IMG/VR virus record: IMGVR_UViG_3300025711_000247
Location: 1-38,726 of that record
DNA from: a virus
Reading direction: 5' to 3' (one strand)
Length of the DNA stretch: 38,726 bases
The position numbers were made by a program, and so were the translations under genes. Of the stretch, positions 9,525-37,807 are shown piece after piece. Within the stretch, counting starts at the first letter, position 1. Each line of letters opens with the position of its first letter. The notes under the pieces were generated by a model, which ran no database searches, had not been told where the DNA came from, and saw only the letters and a program-made list of their open reading frames with translations.

Positions 9525-9530
9525 CGACCT

Positions 9531-15290: not shown

Positions 15291-15320
15291 TTGAATCCGT
15301 TCAAACCTTCCCCGATGTTC
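15291..15320 (+). promoter_or_regulatory. Late-promoter element copy A
   Basis: TTGAATCCGTT (15291-15301), 12 nt, GATGTTC (15314-15320). Read as sigma70-like, TTGAAT and GATGTT are 17 nt apart. The -10-like block ends 24 nt before the ATG at 15343, with GGAGG in between. It would start the portal/head block. Confidence 0.75.
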
Positions 15321-15342
15321 CAAGCAACATTCGGAGGTCGGC

Positions 15343-15786
15343 ATGACTGGCGTAGTCAACACGATGAAAAAGGTTTGGACGGCGTCCACCAAGAAGGGCG
15401 GCATCATCAATAACGCTCTCGACCCAGGTGGCTTTACTCGCGGCCGTGCATTGACCGCCAATAGCTTCATTCACGCCTCGATCGATCCCGCTGGCACGTT
15501 CACGAAGCAGGACAACCGCATCAATCAAGGTTTACCATTCGACAAGATCAGCAAGTCAGGCTCCAGCATGGATAAGCCGGGCGGTTACGAACAGATCGCG
15601 CAGGAGGAAGCGGACGCACAAGCGGCGGTCGACAAGCTCAACGCCACGCCACCAACTATCAATGCTGCCAATAATGCTGCGCGCCAACAGTCAGACCGCC
15701 TGCGCCGGCGCCGCGGTGTGCTGGCGAACATCTACGGAGGCTCGAGCACTCCCAGTGTCGGCCAAAAAGTGTTGCTCGGCTCATGA
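15343..15786 (+). CDS. Conserved head-module protein upstream of portal (147 aa)
   Basis: The protein has a glycine/alanine-rich middle and a C terminus RLRRRRGVLANIYGGSSTPSVGQKVLLGS, a pattern seen in small proteins encoded just before T7-type portal genes and in other phage head-tail regions. No function is established. It is the first gene behind late element A and overlaps the portal start by ATGA. Confidence 0.65.
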   Translation: MTGVVNTMKKVWTASTKKGGIINNALDPGGFTRGRALTANSFIHASIDPAGTFTKQDNRINQGLPFDKISKSGSSMDKPGGYEQIAQEEADAQAAVDKLNATPPTINAANNAARQQSDRLRRRRGVLANIYGGSSTPSVGQKVLLGS

Positions 15787-17402
15787 GCGACGACGCCAAG
15801 AGCATTATCAGTCACCAGGAGCAGCTCGCTGGCAAGCGCTTCAACTTCGATTCGTGGTGGCAGCAGATCGGCGAGCGCGTGCTGCCATCGCAAGCCACGT
15901 TCACGGTCAAAGGCATTGAGCAGGGCGAGAAGCGCACTGAACGTTTATTCGATGCCAACGCCGTCACCGCCAACGAACGCTTTGCCGCCGTGATGGAAGA
16001 TTTGCTCACGCCTCAAACGCAGATCTGGGCAGGCATGGCACCAGAGGATGATTCGTTCGAAGACGATCAAGAGGTCAAGGAATATCTTGAGCAGGTGAAC
16101 AAGATTCTGTTCACGATGCGCTACCGGCCGCGCGCGAACTTCATCAGTCAGAAAAGCCAGGGTTATCTCAGCCTTGGCGCATTCGGCAACAGCTGCCTGT
16201 TCATCGATGAGATTGTCGGCGAAGGTGCGCGCTACAAGCAGATCCACATGTCAGAGGTGTTCTGGTCTGAGAATCACCAAGGCACGATCGACACACTGTA
16301 TCGCCGCTTTCCGTTTTGCGCGGTCAATGCGTTGCGTCGCTTCGGTATGCGCTTGCCAGAAAAGATTCGCAGCACAGTCGACAAGAATCCGTATCAAGAA
16401 TTCGAATTCATCCATTGCGTGAAGCCGAATGAATCATATGTGCCGGGCGCAGTTGGGCCGCGTGGCAAGCCTTATTCGTCGTACTACGTGACCACAGACG
16501 AACGCACAGTAGTGGAGGCAAGTGGTTACAGCAGCTGGCCCTATGCTATTGGGCGCTACATGCTGGCGCCAAATGAAACCTATGCGCGCTCTCCCGCCAT
16601 GGCCGCGTGGCCGGCGATCATGACCATCAACGAGGAAAAGAAAACCATTCTGCGCGCCGGGCAGAAGGAAGTTGACCCGCCCGTATTGCTGCAAGAGGAT
16701 GGCTTGCTCGAAGCCTTCAACATGCGTGCCGGCGCATTGAACTATGGCGCGGTGTCGAATGATGGCACTCCGCTGGCGGTACCGTTCAAGTCTGGCGCGA
16801 ATATCCCGCTTGGCCTTGAACTGATGAACATCGAAAAGCAACACATCGAGGATTCGTTCCTGGTGTCGCTGTGGAGCATGATCGCCGACGAGAACATCAA
16901 GACCGCAGCGCAGGTGTATCAACTGGCGCAGCAGAAATCGACGTTGCTTGCGCCGATCATGGGCCGCAGTCAGTCCGAAGACTTAGGACCGATGATCGCG
17001 CGCGAACTCGACATCGCCGCCAAAGCGAACTTATTGCCGCCTATGCCGCAGCAATTGCTCGATCGCGGCGCCGGCTACAAGATCGAATATCGCTCACCAC
17101 TGGCACGCATGGCGCGCGCACAAGATGGCCTTGCGATTCAGCGCACGTTCGAAAGCGTTGCATCGGTCGCGCAGATCAAGCCTGACGTGTTCGACAACTT
17201 CGACGTTGACGCTTCCGCACGTGAGATCGCAGACATCAACGGCATGCCGGCCAAATTGTTGCGCGATCCGAAGGAAGTACAACAGATTCGTCAGCAAACT
17301 CAGCAATCTCAGGCATTGCAGCAGGCGGCCGAGGTGGCGCCGCAAATTGCGCAGACAGCCAAGACCGCTGCTGAGGCAGACCAGATTCGCGGCGCGCTAT
17401 GA
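15783..17402 (+). CDS. Portal (T7 gp8-type head-to-tail connector)
   Basis: At 539 residues it has the length of T7-like connectors (about 510-560) and their features: LPSQATFTVKGIEQGEKRTERLFDANAVTANERFAAVMEDLLTPQTQIWAGM (about 36-85), a long wing and a C-terminal QQ-rich helix (QQIRQQTQQSQALQQAAEVAPQ). It should form the dodecameric ring at one capsid vertex through which DNA enters and to which the tail joins. Confidence 0.93.
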   Translation: MSDDAKSIISHQEQLAGKRFNFDSWWQQIGERVLPSQATFTVKGIEQGEKRTERLFDANAVTANERFAAVMEDLLTPQTQIWAGMAPEDDSFEDDQEVKEYLEQVNKILFTMRYRPRANFISQKSQGYLSLGAFGNSCLFIDEIVGEGARYKQIHMSEVFWSENHQGTIDTLYRRFPFCAVNALRRFGMRLPEKIRSTVDKNPYQEFEFIHCVKPNESYVPGAVGPRGKPYSSYYVTTDERTVVEASGYSSWPYAIGRYMLAPNETYARSPAMAAWPAIMTINEEKKTILRAGQKEVDPPVLLQEDGLLEAFNMRAGALNYGAVSNDGTPLAVPFKSGANIPLGLELMNIEKQHIEDSFLVSLWSMIADENIKTAAQVYQLAQQKSTLLAPIMGRSQSEDLGPMIARELDIAAKANLLPPMPQQLLDRGAGYKIEYRSPLARMARAQDGLAIQRTFESVASVAQIKPDVFDNFDVDASAREIADINGMPAKLLRDPKEVQQIRQQTQQSQALQQAAEVAPQIAQTAKTAAEADQIRGAL

Positions 17403-17701
17403 ACAAACAACAACAAGCGCTTAAACGAAAGCGCAAAGCCTACGCAGATACTTTCATTGGGGACGGGGATAAACCGCATACCGCGGCGCAGATTGTTCTG
17501 TCCGACCTCAAGCGTTTTTGTCGTGTGAACCGTGGCGGGCTGGTCATCAGTCCCGTCAGCAAGACTGTGGACCCTTATGCAGTCATGTACCAAAACGGTT
17601 TGCGCGATGCGTTCGAGCACATCCGATTGATGCTCGAATGGGACATTGCCAACATCAACGAGGACAGCACAAATGTTCAAGATCAAGCCGATTCTGAGTG
17701 A
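17399..17701 (+). CDS. Bbp19-like phage protein (100 aa)
   Basis: The part VLSDLKRFCRVNRGGLVIS...DPYAVMYQNGLRDAFEHIRLML matches the small family named after BPP-1 Bbp19, which is encoded between portal and scaffold in related podoviruses. Its function is not known to me. The ATG overlaps the portal stop; its 3' end overlaps the scaffold gene by 29 nt. Confidence 0.75.
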   Translation: MNKQQQALKRKRKAYADTFIGDGDKPHTAAQIVLSDLKRFCRVNRGGLVISPVSKTVDPYAVMYQNGLRDAFEHIRLMLEWDIANINEDSTNVQDQADSE

Positions 17702-18536
17702 AGCCAATCCGGGCGACATAGCGCCTCCTGGTAATGGCTCTGCACCTCCACCAAATTCAGCACCACCATCCGGAGACGCAGCAAATCAAGCTTGGTTTCC
17801 GGAGGCGCATAAGGGATTTGTCGAAACGAAAGGCTGGAAAGCACCTGGCGATGTGCTCGAAAGCTACGTCAATCTTGAGAAGTTGATCGGTGCTGATCGC
17901 GCCGGACGCACTGTCGTATTGCCCAAGGACGAGAATGACGCAGAAGGCATGAAAGCATTCCGCGCCAAGCTTGGTGTGCCGGAAACACCAGAAGCGTACG
18001 AACTGCCATTGCCTGAAGGTGATAACGGCGAATTCGCGAAGACGGCGGCATCGTGGATGCATAAAGCAGGCGTACCAAAAGCCGCAGCGCAAGACATTGC
18101 GAAAAACTGGAACGAACACATGAAGGCGCTGGTGCAGGCTTCCGAAGTTGAAGCGCAGCAGAAGGCAGAGCAAGAACTCAGCACGCTGAAGTCACAATGG
18201 GGTCAAGACTTCGCGAAGAACGAAGAGCTCGCGCGTCGCGGTCTGCGAGAGATCGGCAAAGGCGCAGGCCTCGATGACAACGACATCGGTGCACTTGAGT
18301 CGACACTCGGCACGGCGAAGATGCTCAAGATGTTTGTTGAACTCGGTAAAGCAAACGCAGAACCAGGCTTTGCTGGCAATGGCAGTCCAGGCTTCGGCAT
18401 CAACAAATCGCAGGCGCAGACCAAGCTCAACGAGATCAACGGCAAGCGCGCATCGGGCGAGATCACTGATAAGCAATGGAAGGACACCTACGAAGCTGAA
18501 GTCGCCAAGCTTGCAGAGATCGTTTACGGCTCTTGA
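17673..18536 (+). CDS. Capsid scaffolding protein
   Basis: A 287-residue acidic, mostly helical protein between portal and major capsid genes: a disordered proline/serine-rich start, a helix-rich centre (EVEAQQKAEQELSTLKSQWG) and a C terminus with INKSQAQTKLNEINGKRASGEITDKQW, typical of phage scaffolds. It should guide procapsid assembly and then leave. The ATG at 17673 is preferred to an upstream TTG (17646); AGGA lies upstream. Its stop codon is part of late element B. Confidence 0.85.
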   Translation: MFKIKPILSEANPGDIAPPGNGSAPPPNSAPPSGDAANQAWFPEAHKGFVETKGWKAPGDVLESYVNLEKLIGADRAGRTVVLPKDENDAEGMKAFRAKLGVPETPEAYELPLPEGDNGEFAKTAASWMHKAGVPKAAAQDIAKNWNEHMKALVQASEVEAQQKAEQELSTLKSQWGQDFAKNEELARRGLREIGKGAGLDDNDIGALESTLGTAKMLKMFVELGKANAEPGFAGNGSPGFGINKSQAQTKLNEINGKRASGEITDKQWKDTYEAEVAKLAEIVYGS

Positions 18537-18562
18537 TTCCGTTATTTGATTGAATGATGTTC
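18533..18562 (+). promoter_or_regulatory. Late-promoter element copy B
   Basis: TTGATTCCGTT (18533-18543), 12 nt, GATGTTC (18556-18562). The TGA of the scaffold stop lies inside the first block. It stands 167 nt before the capsid gene, with the structured leader in between, unlike the other copies. Confidence 0.75.
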
Positions 18563-18564
18563 CA

Positions 18565-18727
18565 GTTCAAGCCGTACTTCGGTGCGGCTTCGAACGTGGA
18601 CAAGCTCGGGCACCGAGCCCCACTGACTGGCAGCTAAGTGCTGCTCGTCCTAGCCGGGATGATTCCGGTTAGAAGTGGCCCCGATAGGACAAGCCCTTCG
18701 CGAACTTCATAAGTTTTCGGAGCAGCC
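18565..18727 (+). ncRNA. Structured 5' leader of the major capsid mRNA
   Basis: Four hairpins are visible. H1: 18565-18595, about 13 bp with one bulge and a cUUCGg tetraloop (TTCG at 18578-18581). H2: GCTCGG (18604-18609)/CCGAGC (18613-18618). H3: GCAGC (18630-18634)/GCTGC (18640-18644). H4: GTCCTA (18647-18652)/TAGGAC (18685-18690), enclosing an inner CCGG/CCGG hairpin. The fifth-arm region GAACTT/AAGTTT lies near the GGAG site. Stable leaders can protect abundant mRNAs; that role is inferred. No tRNA or riboswitch family is recognised. Confidence 0.6.
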
Positions 18728-19633
18728 ATGTCTGTCAATATCCCTACTTGGTACGTACAACAGTACAACCAGAACATTCAACAGCTCGTGCAGCAGAAGA
18801 AATCTCGCTTGCGCGATGCTGTCACCACCGGCACGCATGTCGGCACCTCTGCCAGCCCTGTTGATCAGGTTGGCGTCATCGAAATGCAGGACGTCACGGA
18901 CCGGTTCGCGCCGATGCCGCGCGTTGATGCACCGACTGATCGCCGCTGGGTGTCGCCGTACGATGCTGACTTGCCTCAGCTGATCGATTCTTTCGACAAG
19001 CTGCGGCTGCTCACCGATCCAAAGAGCATCTACGTCACCAACGCAACGTCGGCCGCGAATCGTAAGTTCGATGATCGCATCGGCGCCGCATTCTTCGCAG
19101 CTGCTCAGACCGGCGTGACCGGCGCTACCAGCACCTCGTTCGACACCACAAATCAAGTGGTGGGCGTGAACACTGGCGGCACTGCAAGCAACATCAATGT
19201 GGCCAAGCTTGAGGCAGGCCGCAAGATTCTGCTGGCCAATGAAGTTGAACTCGAAAACGAACAGATCTTCGTTTGCTTGACCTCGTCCGAGGACAACGCA
19301 CTGCGCAACGAGCTGCAAGTGATCTCGATGGACTTCAACGAAGCCCCAGTGTTCAACGACATGGGTCTGATCATGCGCTGGCGTGGATTCAACTTCATCC
19401 ACAGTGAACGCTCGTGGATCACTTCGACCGCCACCGATGATCAATCCGGCTCGTCTCGCCAGATCCCCATGTGGGTGAAGTCGGGTATGTATCTGGGTAT
19501 CTGGAACGAGATCAACACCAACATCTCTCAACGTAACGATCTGCGCGGCGAACCGTGGCAGGCGTACACCAAGATGAGCGCCAACGGCACTCGCTTGGAA
19601 GAGAAGAAGGTCGTCAAGATCTGGTGCCGATAA
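18728..19633 (+). CDS. Major capsid protein (Phage_capsid_2 type)
   Basis: The 301-residue protein matches the coat proteins of BPP-1-type podoviruses: IPTWYVQQYNQNIQQLVQQKKSRLRDAVTTGTH, RFAPMPRVDAPTDRRW, and the end NDLRGEPWQAYTK...TRLEEKKVVKIWCR. It should form the icosahedral shell. It has its own long structured leader and late-promoter copy, which fits the need for high expression. GGAG lies 8 nt before the ATG. Confidence 0.93.
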   Translation: MSVNIPTWYVQQYNQNIQQLVQQKKSRLRDAVTTGTHVGTSASPVDQVGVIEMQDVTDRFAPMPRVDAPTDRRWVSPYDADLPQLIDSFDKLRLLTDPKSIYVTNATSAANRKFDDRIGAAFFAAAQTGVTGATSTSFDTTNQVVGVNTGGTASNINVAKLEAGRKILLANEVELENEQIFVCLTSSEDNALRNELQVISMDFNEAPVFNDMGLIMRWRGFNFIHSERSWITSTATDDQSGSSRQIPMWVKSGMYLGIWNEINTNISQRNDLRGEPWQAYTKMSANGTRLEEKKVVKIWCR

Positions 19634-19658
19634 CCGCTGATTTACTGAGGACACTCTC

Positions 19659-20177
19659 ATGGCTGTTGTAACTTTAAAAGCGGCATCGATCACGAATCGT
19701 GACGCTTCTCCTCGCGTACTGAGTAACGCGCCGCTGTCGGCCGGCTCGGTGCGCCGTTTCTTGGGCTTTGTCGAAGCTGCCAACGGCGACTCGATTGGCT
19801 CCAAGTACATCCTGGGCCAGATCCCCAGCAACGCATACGGCGAAATCATGAAGCTGTATTGCGATGCCATTACTTCTGGCGCCGGTGACTTGGGCATCTA
19901 TCGAACCACTGTCGACGGTGGCGCTGTTGTAGACGTGGACTTTTACGCGTCTGCTCAATCGATCGCCTCTGCAATCACGACCGGCACGGAGATTCAGCAC
20001 GAAGCTGATGCCACCGATAGCGGTGTTGGCTATGGACTAGCGGACCTTGAAAAGCCGCTGTGGCAACGCCTGCAGCTCTCTGCCGACCCAAAGGTTGTGT
20101 ACGACGTGGTGTTGACATTGACCGCTGCAACGACTGCAGCTGGCACGGTCGCGCTGCGTGGCGAGTACGCGGTCTGA
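19659..20177 (+). CDS. Capsid decoration/cement protein candidate (172 aa)
   Basis: A beta-rich, glycine/alanine-rich protein directly after the capsid gene, with no cysteines except C-D in the middle, and a strong sequence end (AAGTVALRGEYAV). In epsilon15- and BPP-1-type phages this position encodes a decoration protein that stabilises the shell. That role is inferred from position. A terminator follows. Confidence 0.6.
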   Translation: MAVVTLKAASITNRDASPRVLSNAPLSAGSVRRFLGFVEAANGDSIGSKYILGQIPSNAYGEIMKLYCDAITSGAGDLGIYRTTVDGGAVVDVDFYASAQSIASAITTGTEIQHEADATDSGVGYGLADLEKPLWQRLQLSADPKVVYDVVLTLTAATTAAGTVALRGEYAV

Positions 20178-20187
20178 ATATCCCCGA

Positions 20188-20214
20188 GGCTCGGGACTGA
20201 CACCGAGCCGTTTT
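20188..20214 (+). terminator. Rho-independent terminator after capsid and decoration genes
   Basis: GGCTCGG (20188-20194) pairs perfectly with CCGAGCC (20203-20209), loop of 8 nt, then G and four T. It probably separates the high-level capsid message from the genes after it. The short T run suggests partial read-through. Confidence 0.75.
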
Positions 20215-20228
20215 CCATGGAGATTTGT

Positions 20229-20777
20229 GTGGTTGAAGTCACTCACAAGACCTGCGCACGCTGCAAGGTAGAAAAGCTTGCAGCAACCTTCTATCGCGAC
20301 AAGCGGACGAAGCGCGATGGTCTTATGGGTTCGTGCAAAGAGTGTCATAACTCGCGAGTCGTCAATTGGCAAAATTCTAATCGGGACAAGGTTAGGGCCG
20401 CCGTTTTGGCTCGTCATCGAAATAACGTTGATGGTGATCGGGTCGCGCTCAAGGCTTGGCGTGCCGCTAATCCTGAAAGAACTAAGCAGCAATGGGTTCG
20501 TAGTCGCGCCAGAAACGGCACTGCTATATATGCGCGCAATGCTGCTCGCACAGAACAGCAGCGGCGTGCGACTCCAGCGTGGGCAAACAAATTCTTCATT
20601 GAAGAAGCTTATGAGCTTGCTCGTTTGCGAACAAAAGTTACTGGTTTTAAGTGGCACGTTGATCACGTAATTCCCCTCAAAGGGAAGAACGTTTGTGGTC
20701 TGCATGTCGAAACTAATTTCGCCGTGATTCCAGCGGCAGTTAACGTGAGGAAGCAAGCTAGCTTCCTTGCGGCGTAA
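20229..20777 (+). CDS. HNH endonuclease, free-standing homing type
   Basis: The C-terminal HNH core is clear: WHVDHVIPLKGKNVCGLHVETNFAVIPAAVNVRKQASF, with the DH, N and N-x-x-K positions of the fold. The N terminus has C-x2-C (CARC) and C-x2-C (CKEC), a probable zinc ribbon, and the middle is basic and helical. Such genes are common mobile passengers in phage structural clusters. GTG 20229 has GGAG 6 nt upstream; an ATG at 20217 would place the start inside that site. Confidence 0.82.
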   Translation: MVEVTHKTCARCKVEKLAATFYRDKRTKRDGLMGSCKECHNSRVVNWQNSNRDKVRAAVLARHRNNVDGDRVALKAWRAANPERTKQQWVRSRARNGTAIYARNAARTEQQRRATPAWANKFFIEEAYELARLRTKVTGFKWHVDHVIPLKGKNVCGLHVETNFAVIPAAVNVRKQASFLAA

Positions 20778-20788
20778 GGAGAAGGCTC

Positions 20789-20983
20789 TTGGCAGACAAG
20801 TTCTATGGCATCGCCCTCGGTGGCATGCAGCCCAAGGACGTGACTGAAGCCGGTTCGACGACTTCCGCAGTGGTCGAACTTCGCATCAACGACACGGTGT
20901 ATGGCAGCAAGCTGCTAGTACAGCAAGCGCTAGAAGCCATCGTGAATTACATCGCAACCAAAGAAACCACGCCAATTGGTTGA
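20789..20983 (+). CDS. Small structural-cluster protein (64 aa)
   Basis: The TTG start has AAGGAGAAGG upstream. The product (MADKFYGIALGGMQPKDVTEAGSTTSA...) is a small mixed protein with a hydrophobic centre and no recognised domain. It lies between the HNH gene and a run of beta-rich proteins. It may be a minor capsid component. Confidence 0.6.
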   Translation: MADKFYGIALGGMQPKDVTEAGSTTSAVVELRINDTVYGSKLLVQQALEAIVNYIATKETTPIG

Positions 20984-20986
20984 TGT

Positions 20987-21346
20987 ATGGCAACGGTTAC
21001 ACCAACAGTCCAATACATACCTAACGGACAGGCCAATGCGGTATTGGTCACCTGGTCCAACATGGCAAATGGCGATGTGGGCGCGCCCGTTGAAGGTGTC
21101 GACTATGCCGATCGAACAGTTCAATTCGGTGGAACGTTTGGAGTAGGTGGATCGGTTACGTTTGAAGGTAGCAACAACAACAGCGCTTACGTGGCACTGA
21201 CCGATCCACAAGGCAATGCCATCACAAAGACGGCTGCCGCACTTGAAGTGATCGAAGAGGGTCCGCGCTATGCACGTCCCAATGTCACAGCGGGTGATGG
21301 CTCTACTGCGATAACAGTCACGCTGTGGGGCCGGAGGTCGCGATGA
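20987..21346 (+). CDS. Beta-rich structural protein (119 aa)
   Basis: The sequence has repeated short beta strands, with threonine, valine and glycine (VLVTWSNMANGDVGAPVEG, VTFEGSNNNSAYVALTDPQGN), as in phage decoration or Ig-like proteins. No family named. It overlaps the next gene. Confidence 0.6.
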   Translation: MATVTPTVQYIPNGQANAVLVTWSNMANGDVGAPVEGVDYADRTVQFGGTFGVGGSVTFEGSNNNSAYVALTDPQGNAITKTAAALEVIEEGPRYARPNVTAGDGSTAITVTLWGRRSR

Positions 21347-21753
21347 GTTTACGTGATCGTGTGCGATCATTCATGAACCCCGATGCTGTCACCCATGTGG
21401 TGAATCCAAAGGGATTACTGAATGCGAAGTTTCAGCCACATGTTGCTGCCAGTTCGTCAATTCGGCGCCGCACAACGATGACTGAGCATGGTTCTGTATT
21501 ACGTCCTGATGAACAACACCCGAAGCGTGGCATGTGGGTTCGTTATGGAAACCGCACAGGCATTCTGACCAACCTGGAAGCAGGCGACATCGCGACTGTG
21601 ATGCTCGTCGATGACCAAGATGGAACGAATTCGCTCGAAGTACACACACCCGGCTCACAGATTCGTCAGGCTTACTTCGAGGAACTGCCGGTAGCACGTC
21701 GGCCTTCCTATGCTGATGCGGCGCGCTTCGGCTATGTTAGGAAGCCAGCATGA
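21343..21753 (+). CDS. Hypothetical structural-cluster protein (136 aa)
   Basis: The N terminus is basic and hydrophilic; the middle RGMWVRYGNRTGILTNLEAGDIATVMLVDDQDG looks like a small SH3-like barrel (strand-turn-strand pattern). The ATG overlaps the preceding stop as ATGA and has CGGAGG upstream. The C terminus ends in a basic tail. Function unknown. Confidence 0.65.
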   Translation: MSLRDRVRSFMNPDAVTHVVNPKGLLNAKFQPHVAASSSIRRRTTMTEHGSVLRPDEQHPKRGMWVRYGNRTGILTNLEAGDIATVMLVDDQDGTNSLEVHTPGSQIRQAYFEELPVARRPSYADAARFGYVRKPA

Positions 21754-22154
21754 CCATTCTCGTCCCCAACAACGGCGAGTCAGTTGCTTTGCAATTGCTA
21801 GTGAACAAGATCACCACGCCGGAGAATCTGAAATACCAGCTGTTTGCGACCAATATCACGCCCGCTGAGACTGATACAGCGGGTACGTATACGATCGCCA
21901 CTGGTGGCGGTTATGCAGATAAGACACTCACTGGAGCAAGCTGGACTGCAACGCCTGGTGCGCCATCGAACGTGGCCTATGCGCAGCAAACGTGGACGTT
22001 CACTGGTGCATTGACGACCAATGCCACCATCTATGGATACATTGCTGTCCGTGCGTCAAGCGGCGACATCATTCTCGCTGAAACATTCAGCAGCTTCACT
22101 CCGGCAAACAACGGTGATCAGATTCTGCTCACGCCACAAATCACGGCGGACTAA
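21750..22154 (+). CDS. Beta-rich structural protein (134 aa)
   Basis: A hydrophilic beta-rich protein with threonine-rich strands (TYTIATGGGYADKTLTGASWTATPGAP, TWTFTGALTTNATIYGYIAV), typical of phage decoration or fibre-associated proteins. No family named. It overlaps the preceding gene by 4 nt. Confidence 0.6.
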   Translation: MTILVPNNGESVALQLLVNKITTPENLKYQLFATNITPAETDTAGTYTIATGGGYADKTLTGASWTATPGAPSNVAYAQQTWTFTGALTTNATIYGYIAVRASSGDIILAETFSSFTPANNGDQILLTPQITAD

Positions 22155-22157
22155 TTC

Positions 22158-22703
22158 ATGCGTAACGTATGGGGCGCGCCCCTGATTATTCAGCAAGTAG
22201 ATGGAACTGCATTAACCAATACGACTACTGCAACCTCGCTGCTGCCAACTCAGGCAAAAGTGAACTTGGCTCCGAATACCGATCTGAATACCGGCATCAA
22301 AATGAAACTGTTTGCCGGTGGCCGCATCAGCACTGCTGCCTCTACGCCTGGCACGTTGACGTTTGATGTCCGCTTCGGTTCCGTCGTCGTGTTCAATGGC
22401 GGAGCATCTGGCACGCTTGCAACATCTGCATCCAATCTATCTTGGTGGCTTGAGATTGATCTTATCGTTCGCACCATTGCTACAGGCGTGAACTCCAATG
22501 TAATCGGGATTGGCAGACTGCTTACTGCGGCATTGTCGGCCACTACGCCTATTGCGCTGCTACCAACCTCATCGCCAGCAGTGGGTACATCATTCGACAA
22601 TTCGCTTACCACCAATACAGTCGATCTCTTTGCTACATGGTCAGTTGCTAACGCATCAAACAGCATTCGCTGCGACATGTTTGGGTGGTCGTTGGAGAAC
22701 TAA
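22158..22703 (+). CDS. Beta-rich structural protein (181 aa)
   Basis: The protein has a beta-jelly-like pattern of alternating strands (NLAPNTDLNTGIKMKLFAGGRIST, GTLTFDVRFGSVVVFNGG, SWWLEIDLIVRTI) and one C-terminal cysteine. It resembles small receptor-binding or capsid-fibre-type proteins of tailed phages in composition only. Confidence 0.6.
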   Translation: MRNVWGAPLIIQQVDGTALTNTTTATSLLPTQAKVNLAPNTDLNTGIKMKLFAGGRISTAASTPGTLTFDVRFGSVVVFNGGASGTLATSASNLSWWLEIDLIVRTIATGVNSNVIGIGRLLTAALSATTPIALLPTSSPAVGTSFDNSLTTNTVDLFATWSVANASNSIRCDMFGWSLEN

Positions 22704-22706
22704 GTC

Positions 22707-23831
22707 GTGCACCTGCAATCTTGGGCTGCACGCGCAAGAAGGACGAAATATGCCGCTCTTCCGGTGGTGGTGACGCCGGGTGTTTGGTACGACGTAACGC
22801 CTGCCGGCATCAGTCTTGATCCGGACTATGGCGGCGCACCTGGTAGCGGCGGCAATTTTGGTTTCGAGTCAGTTTGGCATGACTCATCGAATGTCGGCAC
22901 GTTCTATGCGATGTGTCACTTGCAAGGTGTATGGAAATCAACCGACGGCGGCGTAACGTGGACTGGTCCCATCAACACCGGCACTAATGGCGCGGCGATC
23001 ACGGCCAGTGCTGGATGCGTAACGGGAGCGGCAACAGGTGGAATACCGGTTCTTTATGTCAATGTCGGTCGCGGCAATCTTGGCTTTTATAAATCCACCG
23101 ACGGTGGTGTGAATTGGTCAACCACTGATTTAAGTCCGCCATTGCCAGACGGTCGCGAAGACATCTATCCAGAATCTGTCAATCCCTACAACAAAGACCA
23201 TGTATTAACGACCGCGCACGAAAACAACTACATCATTCACAGTACGGATGGTGGTGCCACGTGGTCTAACGTGACCATGCCAATCAGTCCAAGTGGCGGT
23301 AGTTGCTACATCTTTTATATCGACACAGGCAACGCGACCACGACCGCAGACACCTGGTTATTGATCGCGCAGGCAAGCTCGGTTGACGGCACGTGGCGCA
23401 CAACTAATGCAGGAGCATCATGGACCAAGGTCGATGGCAACGAGCATACCCACGGTGGATGTCAGATCGCACAGCTAGGCGGCGGCGTCATCTGGATGAC
23501 CGGTGTTTATTCTTCGCTTGGCTGGGGCTGTCTGCGAAGTACTGATTACGGTGCGACTTGGACGCATTACGGACCTAATGAGGGCCGTTCTGTGATTTGG
23601 GGGACATCCAAAAAGATTTACGCAATGGGCGGCGGCGCGGTTCAAACGCCAGTCGATCCAGGATTCATCAGTGCAGTTGCCCCCGGAACTGGAACGTGGA
23701 GTGCAGAGTCCGGCGCAGCGGCCACCTATAACGGCGGCGCGCAAATGCTTGATCAGTATTTCAACGGAACCAACAACGTTTTCATTATGGCCATGGGCAA
23801 TAGCGGCCTTCAGCGCTATGTAGAACCGTAA
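22707..23831 (+). CDS. Asp-box (BNR) beta-propeller protein (374 aa), possible glycan-binding surface protein
   Basis: Five Asp boxes S/T-x-D/N-x-G-x-[TS/N]-W are visible at about residues 78 (STDGGVTW), 130, 179, 232 (TTNAGASW) and 278 (STDYGATW), 46-53 residues apart, as in the blades of sialidase- and xyloglucanase-like propellers. Asp boxes are structural, so they do not prove an enzyme. No sialidase RIP motif or clear catalytic set is seen. Its place in the structural block suggests a virion surface role. GTG start at 22707. Confidence 0.75.
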   Translation: MHLQSWAARARRTKYAALPVVVTPGVWYDVTPAGISLDPDYGGAPGSGGNFGFESVWHDSSNVGTFYAMCHLQGVWKSTDGGVTWTGPINTGTNGAAITASAGCVTGAATGGIPVLYVNVGRGNLGFYKSTDGGVNWSTTDLSPPLPDGREDIYPESVNPYNKDHVLTTAHENNYIIHSTDGGATWSNVTMPISPSGGSCYIFYIDTGNATTTADTWLLIAQASSVDGTWRTTNAGASWTKVDGNEHTHGGCQIAQLGGGVIWMTGVYSSLGWGCLRSTDYGATWTHYGPNEGRSVIWGTSKKIYAMGGGAVQTPVDPGFISAVAPGTGTWSAESGAAATYNGGAQMLDQYFNGTNNVFIMAMGNSGLQRYVEP

Positions 23832-25450: not shown

Positions 25451-25454
25451 CACA

Positions 25455-25484
25455 TTGATTCCGTTCGCCCCCTTCGTGATATTC
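25455..25484 (+). promoter_or_regulatory. Late-promoter element copy C
   Basis: TTGATTCCGTT (25455-25465), 12 nt, GATATTC (25478-25484). GATATT is the best -10 of the four copies. It ends 23 nt before the ATG at 25506. A short dyad TCCAG/CTGGA (25483-25498) overlaps the -10 end and the GGAG site. Confidence 0.75.
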
Positions 25485-25505
25485 CAGTCACTTCTGGAGT
25501 AGTTC

Positions 25506-28495: not shown

Positions 28496-28901
28496 GCCTT
28501 TTAAGATCGAGCACCTGCGGCAGATGCGTCTCCATCCCAATCAACGGGACTCGATTCATTTCGCGACTGATGAATACTTGAACACGCTGATTGAAGGTGG
28601 TCCGGCGTTCACGATGCGCTTGAAGGATGAGCCGACTATTTGTTTCGGCATGCTCAACTGCTCTGCGGCGCATGGCGTGCTGTGGTCATTCATCGCCGAG
28701 GATGGATGGAAACAGGTAGCGCCAATTCATCGCGGCGCTCTGCGCTTCGTTGCGTCGCTGGGCAAAAAGCAATTGCAGGCGTTCGCTTATTTCGATTCTG
28801 GTTGCAAGTGGCTTGAGCGCTTGGGCTTTGTTTATGTTCGCGACGACAGCGATGTGATGCCAGATGGACGTGTGTGCAAAGTCTTTGTGAGGAACTTCTG
28901 A
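28485..28901 (+). CDS. Gp13-family phage protein, GNAT-like fold (138 aa)
   Basis: The sequence PFKIEHLRQMRLHPNQRDSIHFATDEYLNTLIEGGPAFTMRL... matches the T7 gp13-type family, predicted to have an acetyltransferase-like fold, but with no clear acetyl-CoA site. In T7 gp13 affects virion assembly. The end of the gene overlaps the next by TGATG. It is 11 nt inside the end of the nozzle gene. Confidence 0.75.
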   Translation: MIVEPFKIEHLRQMRLHPNQRDSIHFATDEYLNTLIEGGPAFTMRLKDEPTICFGMLNCSAAHGVLWSFIAEDGWKQVAPIHRGALRFVASLGKKQLQAFAYFDSGCKWLERLGFVYVRDDSDVMPDGRVCKVFVRNF

Positions 28902-29323
28902 TGGCATGGTTTGCAGTTGCGGCACCCCTTATTTCCGGACTGATGCAATCCGAGGGCACCGAGCAAGATGCCACCGCAAACTCGGCCGCCTTACGCCAAC
29001 AAGGTCGCGTTGCCACCGCTCAGGCTTATGCTGACGAACAAACGCAGCGCCGCGAGTCGCGCCAGATCATCGGACGGCAAGCCGCGGCGCTTGCGCAGTC
29101 TGGAACCGGCACTGGCGGAACGAATGCGAATCTCATCGAGCAATCGACGGGCAATGCAGAACTCGATGCGCTGAATATCCGTTACGCTGGCCTGTTGAAA
29201 AAGGCGGGTTTTGAGGCGCAATCACGTGAAGTGACGCGGCAAGGTAAGGCGCTCGCCGGTGCACAACTTTTACAAGGTGTGTCTGGCGCGTACACCACCG
29301 GCATGAAGCTGAGGGGCTACTAA
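28901..29323 (+). CDS. Internal virion protein candidate, T7 gp14-like position (140 aa)
   Basis: An alanine- and glutamine-rich helical protein: a hydrophobic N terminus (MAWFAVAAPLISGLMQ) and an amphipathic helix (EQTQRRESRQIIGRQAAALAQSGTGTGG). This is the place and build of the small internal virion protein of T7 and P22-like ejection sets. It would cross the outer membrane during ejection, by analogy. The ATG at 28901 has GTGAGG upstream. Confidence 0.65.
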   Translation: MAWFAVAAPLISGLMQSEGTEQDATANSAALRQQGRVATAQAYADEQTQRRESRQIIGRQAAALAQSGTGTGGTNANLIEQSTGNAELDALNIRYAGLLKKAGFEAQSREVTRQGKALAGAQLLQGVSGAYTTGMKLRGY

Positions 29324-31389
29324 TGCCAGCGATTCCAACCTACCAGCAGCGCACGAGTGTCGGCGGCGCGGGTCTCGGTCCTGGACCCATGTCTAGCAGT
29401 CCCACTGGCATCATCGGCCAGGCCATCGGCCGTGTTGGTGATGATCTATTGCAGGCGGAACACTTCAAACACCAGCAAGCAGTGCAAGCGCAGCATGAAC
29501 AGGACGAACTGGCGTTAATCGATGCGAACGCTACCGAAATGAATGTTCGTAGCAAGTGGGCGCAGCAAATGCTTGAACGCAAACAGGCCGCGCAGCCTGG
29601 TGCCGATGGATTCGTTCCGCAAGTGCTCAATGACTATGACGCCGAGACAGCCGACACACTAAAGGGCGTCACGAACAAAAAAGCGCGTGCCTACCTGCAA
29701 AACCGCTTTGCTGATGTGCGGTTGAGTTTGCAGAACGATGCGATGTCGTTCGAAAGTGCATCGCGTGGCCAGGTCAAAAAGTCTCGGCTTGAAGATGCGA
29801 CCAGCGCCGCAATGACTGCCGCACGTATCCGTCCGCAGGATTTTGAAAGCATCCTTATGGCGCAGCAGGGCACGATGGAGAACTTCGGCTTAACCGATGC
29901 AGAGAAGGCAGCAGCCATTCCTCAAGCACGCTCCAACATTGCGAGCGCAGCGGTGGAAGGATTGATCGAACAAGATCCATATAAAACTCTCAAGGAACTG
30001 CGCAACGAGAACAGCATAGTGTTGGCGGTTAAATCGCTTGACTATGGCGATCGTGACAAATTGATTAATGCCGCAGAGGTGCGAATCAATCATCTTGAGG
30101 CCAAGCGCGCTGCGGCCATTGCCAAAAATGATGCGAAGGCTGTTCACGCCTTAAACGAAATTGATCGCCAGATAGCCAGTGGTGTGCCAGCTACGCCAGA
30201 AATGTGGAGTGATTGGGGAAACAAGATCAAGGGAACGGAGTATGAGCAAGATTTCAATGATCGAGTTTCAGACGAGCGGGATGTGCAAAAAATGCTGCGA
30301 CTCCCGATTGACCAGCAAATCAAGTACGTGCAAGACAAGCAGTCGGATTTAACGACCAACGGCGGCACGGTGCGCGATGCAACAAATCTTCAGCGGCTGA
30401 CAACTGCCGTGCAGCAAAACGTCAAGCTCATGCAGGAATCGCCGCTGCAGTTCAATGCAAATCGGCTCGGCGAAACGGTTGAGCCATTGGAGGTGCAGCA
30501 GGTGGTTTCTGGCGAGGCATCCGCTCAACTTCAAGATCGTATGACGACGCTGTCAGCGATGCGTAAGGAATACGGCAGCCAAGTGCCGCAGCGTTTGCTG
30601 TTGCCACAGGAAGCCAAGGAGTTGAGTTCAGTCCTGCAAACCGCCACGCCCAAGCAGCAGTCTGAAGTGTTTTCGTCCCTGTATCGCTCGGTTGGCGACA
30701 GTAATGCTTTCAAATCGGTGATGCAGCAGATCGCACCCGACGCACCGGTGAAAGCCATCGCCGGTATGTTGGCCGCGAATCAAGCGCAGATGACTACTGC
30801 CACGCACTGGTTCAAGCCTGATGAGATCAAGTTCAGCGGCGATGTGTCGGCGACTTTGCTGCAAGGTGAGTCAATGCTCAATGCAAGCAAGGAAGACAAA
30901 GCCACCAATGGCAAGCCAAACGCCAAGTTGTACTTGCCAGAACAAACGACATTGCAGTCAGCATTCCAGGATCGCGTCGGCAATGCATTCGTTGGCCGGC
31001 CTGAAGCAGCTGATGTCGCGATGCAAGCCGTGAAGGCTTATTACGTTGGCCGTGCTGCGCAAACTGGACGCCTTGCAGCAAACAGCAAAGACATCGACCA
31101 AAACTTGGTGAAGGAAGCCATCACCGCCACGCTCGGCACTGTGGTGGACTACAACGGCAATGGCGAAGTGTTCGCGCCATGGGGCATGAATCGCAGCGAC
31201 TTCATCAACAAAGCGCAAGCCGCGATGGTCGCCGCGGGACGCGCTCAAGGCTTGGGCGACAATCAGCTCAATGCTTTTGGTAACGCAGGACTGCGTAACA
31301 AGGGCGACAATACGTACTATGTGGTGCAGGGCCGAAACTACATGTATGGCAATGATGGCAAGCCCATCATCGTCACGGTGCAGCCGTGA
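29323..31389 (+). CDS. Ejection (internal core) protein, T7 gp15-like position (688 aa)
   Basis: A largely alpha-helical, glutamine/alanine-rich protein without lyase or peptidoglycanase motifs that I can see. It is the second of three adjacent large genes that take the place of T7 gp14-gp16, which form the ejection conduit. The TAATG overlap, GAGGGG site and operon order support expression with its neighbours. Function by position only. Confidence 0.65.
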   Translation: MPAIPTYQQRTSVGGAGLGPGPMSSSPTGIIGQAIGRVGDDLLQAEHFKHQQAVQAQHEQDELALIDANATEMNVRSKWAQQMLERKQAAQPGADGFVPQVLNDYDAETADTLKGVTNKKARAYLQNRFADVRLSLQNDAMSFESASRGQVKKSRLEDATSAAMTAARIRPQDFESILMAQQGTMENFGLTDAEKAAAIPQARSNIASAAVEGLIEQDPYKTLKELRNENSIVLAVKSLDYGDRDKLINAAEVRINHLEAKRAAAIAKNDAKAVHALNEIDRQIASGVPATPEMWSDWGNKIKGTEYEQDFNDRVSDERDVQKMLRLPIDQQIKYVQDKQSDLTTNGGTVRDATNLQRLTTAVQQNVKLMQESPLQFNANRLGETVEPLEVQQVVSGEASAQLQDRMTTLSAMRKEYGSQVPQRLLLPQEAKELSSVLQTATPKQQSEVFSSLYRSVGDSNAFKSVMQQIAPDAPVKAIAGMLAANQAQMTTATHWFKPDEIKFSGDVSATLLQGESMLNASKEDKATNGKPNAKLYLPEQTTLQSAFQDRVGNAFVGRPEAADVAMQAVKAYYVGRAAQTGRLAANSKDIDQNLVKEAITATLGTVVDYNGNGEVFAPWGMNRSDFINKAQAAMVAAGRAQGLGDNQLNAFGNAGLRNKGDNTYYVVQGRNYMYGNDGKPIIVTVQP

Positions 31390-32660
31390 GTGTGTTTGAC
31401 CTCGATACCGGTGGACAGACCGCTCTTGATGAGGAAGCGGCTGCCAATCCGCTGAGCGTGACCGAAACTAAACCGGGCGTGTTCGATAACCTTGGCAGCG
31501 GTATCGGCAACGGCATCATGCGCGGCGGAGCGCGAGTGGGTCAGTTCATTGGCATGGCGGGCGCCGTCATCCCGATGGCGATCGATAAGGTGGCGGGTAC
31601 TGATTATACCGACGACTACTTCAAGACACTCGACGACACTGTGAATAACGCAGTGGACTATTGGACGCCCAACGCAGCGGAGACGGGCAAAGCGGGACAG
31701 ATACTCGGCGGGCTAAGTGAAATTGCATTGCCGTTGATGGCTGGTGGCGGCAATCCCACGCTGTTGATCGGTTCGCAAGAGATGGGAACTGCAACTGATC
31801 TTGTGCGGCAAGGCGTCACACCTGGCAAAGCTACTGCCGCGGGCATCGTGCAAGGGTTATCAACCGCTGTGGGACTCAAGCTGCCGTTCCTTGGTAAGTC
31901 GCTGTTAACTCGCATGGCATCCGGCGCAGCAGGAAATCTTGCTACTAATGCCGGTGCGGCAGCGATACAACACGAAATCACTGGCCTTGATCAATTCAAT
32001 CCGCTTGACCTTGAAGCACGTGCAGTGGACATCCTCACTGGCATCGCCTTCGGTGGCTTAGCGCACGTGCAGATGAAGCCCGGTGATATTGCGGCAGTTG
32101 CTGCGGCCAACGACGCCAAGCACTTTCAGCTTGATAGTGCACCGGGCAGGCCAATGGATGAAGCAAGCTCAGTGGCACATCAACAGGCTATGGAGCAGGC
32201 CATCAATGACACCATCGCAGGCGAGAAGGTCACTGCACCGGTATACGTGCAGGACGCTGCATTCGCTCCGCGTGAACTAGCCTCAGTACCAGAGTCAGTG
32301 ATTAAAGATTACGCTGATGTCGACAAGGCGGTCAAAGCTGAGCAAGGCGCGTCACTTGCGAAACAGCAGCAGGCGATCGACGAAGCTGCAGCTGCTACAA
32401 CCGCGGTAGAACCCGGATTAAAACCCGGTGAAAACTCAACCGCCACTGAAACTGATCCGATCATCACATCCGCCCAGCAAGCTGTGTTGAAAAACGATTT
32501 CCATCTGCCCACTGGCGAACTCGACGCAGAAGGCAATGCGAAGACGTCGCCGGCCAGTGAATTGCTCGCTCAGGCTGACGAACAAGTGAAGCTTGCACAG
32601 ACTGACTCCAAAGCATTTGACGCTGCAGTTAACTGCTTTCTATCTCAAGGTGGCGCATGA
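31386..32660 (+). CDS. Ejection-type protein with glycine/alanine-rich membrane-like segment (424 aa)
   Basis: The N-terminal half has long hydrophobic, glycine-rich stretches (about residues 35-75: GSGIGNGIMRGGARVGQFIGMAGAVIPMA; also about 110-170), suggesting a membrane-inserting ejection protein. The C-terminal half is charged and helical. GTG start overlaps the preceding stop as GTGA. No enzymatic motif seen. Confidence 0.65.
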   Translation: MSVFDLDTGGQTALDEEAAANPLSVTETKPGVFDNLGSGIGNGIMRGGARVGQFIGMAGAVIPMAIDKVAGTDYTDDYFKTLDDTVNNAVDYWTPNAAETGKAGQILGGLSEIALPLMAGGGNPTLLIGSQEMGTATDLVRQGVTPGKATAAGIVQGLSTAVGLKLPFLGKSLLTRMASGAAGNLATNAGAAAIQHEITGLDQFNPLDLEARAVDILTGIAFGGLAHVQMKPGDIAAVAAANDAKHFQLDSAPGRPMDEASSVAHQQAMEQAINDTIAGEKVTAPVYVQDAAFAPRELASVPESVIKDYADVDKAVKAEQGASLAKQQQAIDEAAAATTAVEPGLKPGENSTATETDPIITSAQQAVLKNDFHLPTGELDAEGNAKTSPASELLAQADEQVKLAQTDSKAFDAAVNCFLSQGGA

Positions 32661-35173
32661 AGCCGAATTGCATGCTGGAAGTCGCCAAGGCGGTCGGCCG
32701 CGCGTTAACCAACCCTGAGCTGGATGGCATCGAGGCGCGCATCACGCGTCATCTACGCGGGCTCGCCAAGCAAGATCCGAAGGCGTTCATGGCTATGGGT
32801 ACGGCTGAGCGCATGCAGCAGGCTGCTGTTGGTGCTGCACAGGAGCTGGTTGGCGAGGCGCAGTTAAAGAAACAGCGTGTTGCACTCACCGTATTGGCAC
32901 ACGATCGTATTCAAACGCAGATGAGCAATCAGCAAGCGAAGGGAATCAATAACCTCAAGGCGCTCGACCGCATCATGGCGTTCCATGCCGACGCGAAAAG
33001 CAACTTCTTGTCAGTAGAGTCGCAAGCGAATGCCATCCGAGACGACGCGCTGCGCCAGATGATCGGCACGCTCACGGCATCGAATCCAAAATGGTTTGGC
33101 CTGTTCGAGAACAGCGAAGGAATTCGCGCCATCGTCAAAGAGATATTCGGCGAAGACAGCGGCAACTCAGCGGCGAAGCAGGGCGCGAAGGAGTGGGCAG
33201 ACATCACCGCACGCCTGCGTGATCGCTTCAATCGCAATGGCGGCGACATCGGCCAGCTCGAAGACTGGGGCATGCCGCATCATCACTCACAGCTTGAAGT
33301 TGCTAAGGCCGGTCGCGAGAAATGGATTGCAGACATCACGCCGATGCTGGACCGCGAGCACTACTTCAACCCGGATGGAACCCGCATGGATGATGCGCAG
33401 TTGCACGACTTCCTCGGCAACGCATGGACCACTATTGCCACCGGTGGGGCCAACAAGGTAGAACCCGGCAAGTTTGCTGGCGGTGGTGCGCGCGCGAACC
33501 GCGGCAACGCATCACGTCAGATCCATTTCAAGGACGCCGACAGCTACATGAAGTATCAGGAAGCGTACGGCGAGCGATCGCTGTATGAAGTGCTGACACA
33601 TCACATCGAAAGCGTGGCGAAGGACATCGCACTGGTTGAGACGCTGGGCCCAAACCCTGACAACACCTTCCGCTACTTTAAAGACAAGGCTGTGCGCGAT
33701 GGCAAGCTGGCCGATCCAATCAAATCCGGCAAGCTAGACGAGGCGGCGGTCAACAGCGAAAACCTCTACAACATTGTTGCCGGTAAATCGATGCCGGTCG
33801 CCTCTGAATCGTTGGCCAAGGGATTCGACACGCTGCGCAATTGGTTGGTGGCCTCGCGCTTGGGCTCTGCTGTCATCAGTTCATTCTCGGATGAAGCCAC
33901 AATGCAGCTCACTGCCAAGCTCAACAATCTGCCAGCGATGCAGCTACTCGCGAATGAACTTAAAACGCTGAATCCAGCTAATCGCTTGGAAGAGCGCGTC
34001 GCTAATCGTGCCGGCCTGGGGTTGCGCACAATGGTGGCGTCGCTCAATCGCTTTGGGCAGACTGGTCTTCGTGATGGTTTCAGCAAGCGCCTGTCATCGG
34101 CAGTCATTCGCGTGCAAGGCTTGAATGCCATCACTGAAGCGCGCCGGCGTGCATTCGGCGTAACCATGATGTCTGCTATTGGTAGCGTGGCCAAGAATCA
34201 CAAATCGCTGTCTGCACTCGATGCGATGGATCACCGCATTCTGCTGTCGAAGGGCATCACCGAGACTGACTTCCAGGTGTGGAAGAAAGCGCAGCTTGAA
34301 AACTGGGGCGACGGCAACAACACGATGCTGACGCCTGAAAGCATTTATCGAATCCCTGACGAAGCGCTCAAAGACTTAGGCGATCCGGTGCGGCTACGCG
34401 AACAGGCTGCAACCAAGCTACTTGCTCACACGCTCGAGGAAACGGATGTCGCCGTGATTGAACCAGGCGCGAAAGAGCGATCGATGACCGGCGCAGGTTT
34501 GCAGCGTGGCACGTGGAAAGGTGAACTGGCCAAGTCATTCTTCCTGTTCAAGTCGTTTCCGCTGGCAATGATTCAACGTCACTGGAACCGCGGCATGTCG
34601 ATGCCGAACGCTGGTGGTCGTGCTGCTTATCTTGCGACTCTGATGGCGGCCACTACGGTGCTAGGCGCTGCATCGATGCAGGTCAGTGAAGTGCTAAACG
34701 GTCGCGATCCACGTTCGCTCAATCCGTCGGACAAAGGCGGCACGCGAAACTGGATTCAAGCCATGCTCAAAGGCGGATCGCTCGGCATCTATGGCGACTT
34801 CCTGTTCAGCGATGCAAGCCAATACGGCCAGAGTCCTGTCGCATCGTTCATGGGGCCAGTCGTTGGCATGGGCGAGGACGTCTTCAACCTGACGCAAGGC
34901 AATATCATGCAAGCGATGCAGGGCAAGGACACACACCTCGGGGCAGAGATTGTTAAATTCGGCAAGTCAAACACGCCAGGCGCATCGCTGTGGTACGCCA
35001 AGGCCGCGCTGGATCACTTGATATTTCACCAGCTCCAGGAGTATTACAGTCCCGGTTATCTCTCTACGATGAAGTCACGTGCACAGCGAGAATTTGGACA
35101 GCAATATTATTGGGAACCGGGCGAGGCATTGCCCGATCGTGCGCCAGACTTGGGGCGTGCGTTTGGTGAATGA
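32657..35173 (+). CDS. Large ejection (internal core) protein (838 aa)
   Basis: The 838-residue helical protein includes HHHS (about residue 210, GMPHHHSQ) and a positively charged C-terminal half. It takes the place of T7 gp16, the largest ejection protein, but no lytic transglycosylase motif is found. A C-terminal segment near 660-680 (AAYLATLMAATTVLGAASMQV) is hydrophobic and could insert into a membrane. Function inferred from position and size. Confidence 0.65.
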   Translation: MKPNCMLEVAKAVGRALTNPELDGIEARITRHLRGLAKQDPKAFMAMGTAERMQQAAVGAAQELVGEAQLKKQRVALTVLAHDRIQTQMSNQQAKGINNLKALDRIMAFHADAKSNFLSVESQANAIRDDALRQMIGTLTASNPKWFGLFENSEGIRAIVKEIFGEDSGNSAAKQGAKEWADITARLRDRFNRNGGDIGQLEDWGMPHHHSQLEVAKAGREKWIADITPMLDREHYFNPDGTRMDDAQLHDFLGNAWTTIATGGANKVEPGKFAGGGARANRGNASRQIHFKDADSYMKYQEAYGERSLYEVLTHHIESVAKDIALVETLGPNPDNTFRYFKDKAVRDGKLADPIKSGKLDEAAVNSENLYNIVAGKSMPVASESLAKGFDTLRNWLVASRLGSAVISSFSDEATMQLTAKLNNLPAMQLLANELKTLNPANRLEERVANRAGLGLRTMVASLNRFGQTGLRDGFSKRLSSAVIRVQGLNAITEARRRAFGVTMMSAIGSVAKNHKSLSALDAMDHRILLSKGITETDFQVWKKAQLENWGDGNNTMLTPESIYRIPDEALKDLGDPVRLREQAATKLLAHTLEETDVAVIEPGAKERSMTGAGLQRGTWKGELAKSFFLFKSFPLAMIQRHWNRGMSMPNAGGRAAYLATLMAATTVLGAASMQVSEVLNGRDPRSLNPSDKGGTRNWIQAMLKGGSLGIYGDFLFSDASQYGQSPVASFMGPVVGMGEDVFNLTQGNIMQAMQGKDTHLGAEIVKFGKSNTPGASLWYAKAALDHLIFHQLQEYYSPGYLSTMKSRAQREFGQQYYWEPGEALPDRAPDLGRAFGE

Positions 35174-35176
35174 CTG

Positions 35177-35383
35177 ATGCAATTTCTTTTGGTCAATTTA
35201 TTTCTATTGGGCGTCATTGCTATAGCTGCTGGATTGCTTTGGCTTATTGGCGCACTGATGTGGAAATTGGATCTGCCACCGGACGAAAATCCGATGATTT
35301 CGACCATTGGATGCGTCGCCGCTTTGATCATCACTTACTACGTATGCAAATGGATTTACGGCAAGTTCGGCAAGCGTTTCTGA
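35177..35383 (+). CDS. Two-pass small membrane protein (68 aa)
   Basis: Two hydrophobic stretches (about residues 3-28 and 42-61) flank a short acidic-proline loop (KLDLPPDENP). It follows the last ejection gene by 3 nt and ends just before late element D. A holin role is possible but unproven; the C terminus is basic (YGKFGKRF). An overlapping frame starting at 35170 is rejected. Confidence 0.65.
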   Translation: MQFLLVNLFLLGVIAIAAGLLWLIGALMWKLDLPPDENPMISTIGCVAALIITYYVCKWIYGKFGKRF

Positions 35384-35387
35384 CGCA

Positions 35388-35417
35388 TTGATTCCGTTAT
35401 TGGGTTCCCCGATGTTC
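35388..35417 (+). promoter_or_regulatory. Late-promoter element copy D
   Basis: TTGATTCCGTT (35388-35398), 12 nt, GATGTTC (35411-35417). The -10-like block ends 24 nt before the GTG at 35440. A perfect dyad CGGCCT (35417-35422)/AGGCCG (35430-35435) includes the GGAGG ribosome-binding site. Confidence 0.75.
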
Positions 35418-35439
35418 GGCCTAAATTGGAGGCCGGACA

Positions 35440-37773: not shown

Positions 37774-37807
37774 TGCACATCGACCCAACACCAACCGGCG
37801 AAAAAGC

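Follow-up and report, generated by a model that had tools for sequence, protein, structure and literature searches.

In the window, by which we mean the whole 38.7-kb virus record analyzed here (38,726 nt), a bipartite sequence recurs at boundaries between late genes, which raises the question of whether these repeats are promoters and, if so, what recognizes them. The virion genes match those of podoviruses of the epsilon15/BcepC6B/BPP-1 kind, with T7-like tail proteins. Since an integrase and a repressor-like HTH protein are also encoded, the phage is temperate, and we class it as an unclassified temperate podovirus of this kind. No match at the DNA level was found among phage records, and the best named relatives of its 838-aa gp17-like protein showed ~50% identity. 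Relatives were not found with the portal protein as the query; closer ones, with capsid identities of up to 72%, were reached with tail tubular protein B. The loci L112x, L113x, and L055x were extended to their full contigs, and L114 is a short contig.

A preliminary description of this DNA had proposed a four-copy element, TTGAWTCCGTT-N12-GATRTTC, and four exact copies were indeed present, all on the + strand (Table 1). No fifth match with ≤3 mismatches was detected elsewhere in the window. At this tolerance, dinucleotide shuffles gave a chance expectation of 0.13, and none of 100 shuffles contained four matches; the number of exact matches expected from base composition was ~2e-6. The copies had been called intergenic. 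All of them lie at gene junctions, but not all are strictly intergenic: the first bases of copies 1 and 3 lie 2 and 5 nt beyond the upstream stop codon, and copies 2 and 4 begin inside it. The 23 to 24 nt claimed between the −10-like block and the start codon in three copies agreed with the distance from hexamer end to start codon, which at the capsid copy is 167 nt. Gene calls also bore out a functional block behind each copy: the portal block opens with a 147-aa ORF and the portal gene, the capsid block with the major capsid gene, the tail block with the gene for tail tubular protein A, and the spike/lysis block with the tail spike gene. Four late transcription units were inferred from this arrangement, without mapped start sites. 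An 82-aa ORF at 15041-15289, which ends beside copy 1, contains CxxxH...CxxC residues and is a possible zinc ribbon; it was not found in the relatives.

Table 1. Positions of the repeated element, the inferred late units, and associated features in the window
Feature	Position	Strand	Basis	Remarks
84-aa ORF	13016..13270	+		Just 5′ of probable small terminase gene
Late promoter copy 1 (putative)	15291..15320	+	Exact match	Box TTGAATCCGTT, −10 GATGTT 15314-15319; heads 147-aa ORF, portal, Bbp19-like, protease; homologues L112x 4285, L113x 4950, L055x 5209, BcepC6B 2778
Late promoter copy 2 (putative)	18533..18562	+	Exact match	Box TTGATTCCGTT, −10 GATGTT 18556-18561; heads capsid block; homologues L112x 7541, L113x 7992, L055x 8253
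Late promoter copy 3 (putative)	25455..25484	+	Exact match	Box TTGATTCCGTT, −10 GATATT 25478-25483; heads tail tubular A/B and internal virion genes; counterparts at same junction L114 104, L113x 13844
Late promoter copy 4 (putative)	35388..35417	+	Exact match	Box TTGATTCCGTT, −10 GATGTT 35411-35416; heads spike and lysis genes; counterparts at spike L112x 21422, L055x 25364, BcepC6B 18985, L177 20315, L182 16492
Inferred late unit 1	15343..18536	+	Gene calls	147-aa ORF, portal, Bbp19-like, protease
Inferred late unit 2	18728..25450	+	Gene calls	Major capsid, orf172, endonuclease-like, further genes
Inferred late unit 3	25506..35391	+	Gene calls	Tail tubular A and B, internal virion proteins, gp17-like (838 aa), 73-aa ORF
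Inferred late unit 4	35440..38532	+	Gene calls	Spike, 104-aa ORF, endolysin
Hairpin CCGATGTT/AACATTCGG (predicted)	15312..15334	+	RNA fold	5′ arm is −10 region, 3′ arm abuts SD GGAGG; not significant alone (z −0.7)
Hairpin TGATATTCCAG/CTGGAGT (predicted)	25477..25506	+	RNA fold, z −2.2	5′ arm overlaps −10, 3′ arm holds SD TGGAG
Hairpin GTTCGGCC/GGCCGGAC (predicted)	35413..35440	+	RNA fold, z −3.9	5′ arm starts in −10; SD in loop and stem
Structured 5′ leader of capsid mRNA	18562..18727	+		Begins at end of promoter element; shared with relatives
Leader module A (approximate ends)	18596..18625	+		GTGG-ACAA-GCTCGG-GCA-CCGAGC-C-CCAC, internal loop ACAA/C; also in L055x/L111, L112
Leader module B (approximate ends)	18677..18695	+		GGC-C-CC-GATA-GG-ACAA-GCC, same internal loop permuted; 23 distinct versions in capsid leaders of comparison loci
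Carriers of capsid-leader module				Window, L055x, L112, L113, L115, L117-L119, L121, L122, L126-L128, L130, L133, L142, L144, L153, L162, L171, L179, L094

Homologous phages that lack the motif but keep the flanking genes would have spoken against the element. None of the relatives found retains the exact sequence, but a counterpart takes its place at the homologous junctions. Motif scans of IMG/VR returned ten stretches with one match each and no sign of related late genes, and among 94 comparison loci the motif was absent except for the window's own copies and two chance contigs; within the sequence data searched, the exact element is private to the window phage. The relatives carry their own repeated versions of the box at the same late junctions. 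Within the 24.4 kb of L112x, TTGAWTCTGTYGCTC has exactly three occurrences, one at each of the junctions of portal, capsid, and spike, and L113x contains TTGAMWTTCSC exactly three times, at portal, capsid, and tail, in both cases with no occurrence on the − strand. L055x has four sites, three with TTGANNGTGCCGCYC (portal, capsid, and another gene) and one upstream of the spike that reads TAGATAGTGCCGCTC, and L114 has one copy, before a tail gene. BcepC6B and its relatives L177, L182, and L190 carry ACGATTCTGCG or a near variant at portal and spike, with an additional copy inside the annotated protease gene (BcepC6B 5549); these sites come from close relatives and are not independent. In BPP-1, GGGTGCCCGTGCC occurs four times on the late strand. 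A 6+6 gapped-word scan, which found the repeats of BPP-1, YeP4, and epsilon15, missed the relatives' versions because of their degenerate positions, and the BcepC6B repeat was found by a 15-mer similarity scan.

Some candidates were set aside. A further site at L151 4458 is probably due to chance, and repeats of two other phages were excluded from the site set because a clear −10 is missing. Yersinia phage YeP4 (L010), and also L070, has a five-copy repeat, TCGGGAAACCGA(ACGC), with a 4-bp hairpin and a GAAA loop; the YeP4 copies (17956, 21350, 21462, 32999, and 34940), several of which lie at analogous late junctions, could be an RNA-level site. The repeat of Alcaligenes phage Piluca (L012), CACCCAACAAA, occurs at 7, 19459, 22691, and 24200, with copies near the record start and upstream of the capsid and tail knob genes.

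Using the window alone, we predicted that A and T should occupy offsets 24 and 28 from the box start, corresponding to a 17-nt spacer, and examined eight sites in L112x, L114, and L055x that had been found by their box only. The predicted pair was present in seven of the eight, the exception (L055x 25364) lacking A2, and any other offset gave at most 3/8. Background for the pair was 0.024 to 0.039 per site, and a simple binomial at 0.035 yielded ~1e-9. In all three copies of L113x the pair lies one base further (18 nt), with the predicted start site coinciding with the start codon in two of them. BcepC6B sites, aligned by their GATTC core, had the pair in 3/3 cases, and BPP-1 shows the hexamers TACTGT, TAGAGT, TAGCCT, and AAAACT 15 nt after its box. 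Across 23 sites, A24 was present in 22 and T28 in all, and conservation was confined to GA..TCYGY followed, after a free stretch (positions 11 to 23 vary), by A24 and T28. Among the spike junctions of the BcepC6B group, identity was 100% for the box and the A/T pair, in contrast to 33% for the 12-nt spacer. A survey not conditioned on the chosen sites pointed in the same direction: GAWTCYG cores were accompanied by the −10 A/T pair in 11/32 cases before gene starts versus 40/692 elsewhere (Fisher p 3e-6; 2e-4 without the window). Predicted leaders are mostly short, with the SD downstream of the predicted start site. At BPP-1 (L014) 24133, 20748, and 26294, the predicted −10 ends 7 to 8 nt before an ATG, which implies leaderless late mRNA for bbp24 and bbp19; the annotated start of bbp26 is probably too far upstream.

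A at the second and T at the sixth position are the hallmark of −10 hexamers of the sigma70 family. Such a hexamer, 16 to 18 nt from an upstream element, is what the sites provide. A TTGACA-like −35 is not met: the window has TTGAWT, and the relatives have ACGATT, GGGATT, or GTGCC-type boxes. The earlier reading of TTGATT and GATGTT as sigma70 boxes holds for the 17-nt spacing and for A2/T6, which recur in the relatives. TTGATT is better not taken for a true −35, because the cross-phage core is GAWTCYGY and BcepC6B has ACGATT at this position. The extra recognition step that had been suspected beyond the −35 gained support from the cognate phage-specific boxes, the recurring A2/T6, and the free spacer. 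Could the copies nevertheless be ordinary constitutive sigma70 promoters (TTGATT, 17 nt, GATRTT) whose additional conserved bases stem from recent cassette duplication? The 17-nt spacing, and a box starting with TTGA in several of the phages, would fit. However, conservation runs on through CCGTT or CTGTYGCTC, a GGTGCC-type box takes the place of TTGATT in BPP-1, and the −10 looks too weak to act alone; recent duplication is improbable because spacers and flanks are unrelated between copies. We regard this explanation as very unlikely. The comparison instead supports sigma70-type late promoters in which the −35 is replaced by a phage-specific box near −30. Against this reading, the hexamers match TATAAT poorly, the sites are missing from the output of a plain sigma70 scan of the region, and one BcepC6B copy lies inside an annotated gene. 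The repeated element itself is real, and its reading as a promoter is supported by comparison, not by experiment.

Overall, we consider it likely that these are late promoters of host RNA polymerase with sigma70 that depend on a phage-specific box and a phage activator or sigma-modifying factor, with hairpins across several of the starts; start sites, activator, and translational lock are inferences from sequence. Host polymerase with sigma70 would use all four elements. Their left-hand block would be a recognition box centered near −30 in place of a −35, and the right-hand block a degenerate −10 with only A2 and T6 fixed. The reader of the box would be the phage-encoded activator or sigma-modifying factor, by which the four late units would be switched on together.

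A similar geometry is known from T4 middle promoters, where the MotA box is centered near −30, 12 nt upstream of the −10, and replaces the −35 (PMC2988021). The window elements and the BcepC6B group have an 11-nt box and a 12-nt spacer and so meet the MotA spacing criterion (12 ± 1 nt). In contrast to T4, the box is unrelated in sequence and different in each phage, the −10 is degenerate (excellent in T4), and the genes are late structural ones. The MotA box sequence WTGCTTYA (consensus TGCTTtA) does not occur at the elements, and no MotA or AsiA was recognized among the ORFs scanned, although a diverged protein could be missed. A long upstream box and a weak −10 would also fit a phage-encoded alternative sigma factor that reads both blocks, and in BPP-1, Bbp27, whose gene immediately precedes that of the small terminase, shows a weak HTH/sigma region 4-like match below the curated cutoff. 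This is unlikely, as the A2/T6 pattern is the −10 signature of the sigma70 family and scans of window proteins with Pfam, PHROGs, and NCBIfam recognized no sigma factor.

To look for a reader of the box, we compared the early regions of the four phages for which both early region and element are in the data (the window, L112x, L055x, and L113x). Only one early-region protein, that of the 84-aa ORF, is conserved in all four. No known family or fold was found for it: the structure model, built with four sequences, reached a pLDDT of 80, and no PDB match was better than E 7. Its role as late regulator is guesswork, and we offer this weak candidate as a lead only. The large terminase of L112x and L113x differs from that of the window and L055x, and this difference around a shared upstream protein is a sign of module exchange there.

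The preliminary description had contrasted four late units with the single late operon of lambda. The units, which are inferred, would not be exceptional: P2 (Ogr) and Mu (C) each have four coordinately activated late promoters (PMC3931495, PMC4287176), and a late region divided in this way is nothing out of the ordinary. The P2 Ogr site, TGT-N12-ACA, had two matches in the window, neither at an element, and the site of Mu C is a dyad, unlike the box described here. Dyads also bear on the possibility that the repeats are operators of the lysogeny repressor inside late promoters. Epsilon15 has related virion genes and, as here, control sites ahead of portal block and tail spike; these (ATTACC-N5-GGTAAT) are annotated as repressor operators with dyad symmetry, but epsilon15 has no matching box, the window element lacks such symmetry, and the surroundings of the repressor-like gene at 9107-9595 contain no copy with ≤3 mismatches. 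An operator function is accordingly extremely doubtful.

At three of the window copies, RNA folding predicts a feature absent from the preliminary description: a hairpin with the −10 block on its 5′ side and, on its 3′ side, a segment that includes the SD or directly adjoins it. At copy 3, the predicted probability of an unpaired SD was 0.00 in read-through versus 0.32 in the local transcript, and at copy 4 the SD stays half open. Arms read from the sequence in BcepC6B relatives are CCTCTTCGG/CCGGAGAGG for the portal site and ATGGCGCAG/CTGCGCCAT for the spike site; the latter pair draws the start codon itself into the helix. Between read-through and local transcripts, predicted SD accessibility at 13 element sites rose from 0.29 to 0.63, a far larger gain than at 115 control starts, where it went from 0.46 to 0.54 (p 8e-5, weakening to p 0.001 when the folding window was larger and the flanks longer). 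Sites from one genome are not independent, and some sites lack the rise.

Hairpins following many copies, as well as the TCGG-GAAA-CCGA hairpin in the YeP4 repeat, might suggest that the element is no promoter but acts solely at the RNA level, as a site of processing, antitermination, or translational control within a long late mRNA. We give this little credence: the conserved box has no conserved pairing partner, the spacer is fixed in length but free in sequence, and register and arms of the hairpins differ between copies. The right-hand block (block B) was rejected as a conserved RNA stem for the same difference in register. With promoter and hairpin in the same DNA, a 5′ arm in the −10/start-site region and a 3′ arm over the SD or start codon would leave a long read-through mRNA poorly translated, and transcripts from the local promoter, without the 5′ arm, would be open. 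In T4, the SD or start codon of genes e, soc, 49, and I-TevI lies in a helix in long transcripts, and for gene e and I-TevI a late promoter at the 5′ strand of the helix gives rise to their own transcripts without that strand (PMC3014915). The same logic is predicted here, and the geometry (3′ arm over SD or AUG, 5′ arm upstream of the local start) is met in prediction, albeit not at every site. In contrast to T4, it would apply at many late promoters of unrelated temperate podoviruses and in a different promoter class.

Taken further, these phages of the BcepC6B/BPP-1 kind might share a late switch with two keys: a coevolving phage-specific activator box would stand in for the −35 at three or four late promoters, and a hairpin lock in the same promoter DNA would restrict the translation of late genes to transcripts from their own activated promoters. 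This is a tentative proposal that we hold as possible without favoring it; if true, the activator would be a new, small phage factor. Multipromoter late control and hairpin locks are each known, and their combination as a shared, coevolving design appears undescribed in the literature searched, where we also found no promoter-level description of late-gene switch-on in this podovirus group, whose models include BPP-1 and epsilon15. The element represents a testable promoter class, from which start sites can be predicted in several phages at once with an uncertainty of one or two bases. With one box per phage, each with what should be its own reader, the differing boxes at fixed geometry form a natural series for the coevolution of activator and site, and the hairpins suggest that an mRNA lock like that of T4 emerged in a phage group unrelated to it.

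The capsid copy differs from the others by its long and conserved leader (~165 nt), likewise overlooked before; here the promoter would feed a long structured leader in place of a start-site hairpin. The segment 18562-18745 folds at −80.9 kcal/mol (z −5.6; 0/200 shuffles as stable), and neither the leader nor its module had a match in Rfam. A module of the form GGC-C-CC(n)..(n')GG-ACAA-GCC lies ~50 to 95 nt before the capsid start, with inner stems that vary while pairing is kept, and some leaders contain a second, permuted copy (GYGG-ACAA-stem-C-CCRC). Possibly, the module is a protein-binding site for capsid autoregulation. Directly after the capsid and orf172 genes, at 20188-20209, a terminator-like hairpin (GGCTCGG..CCGAGCC, then GTTTT) may set the excess of capsid protein.
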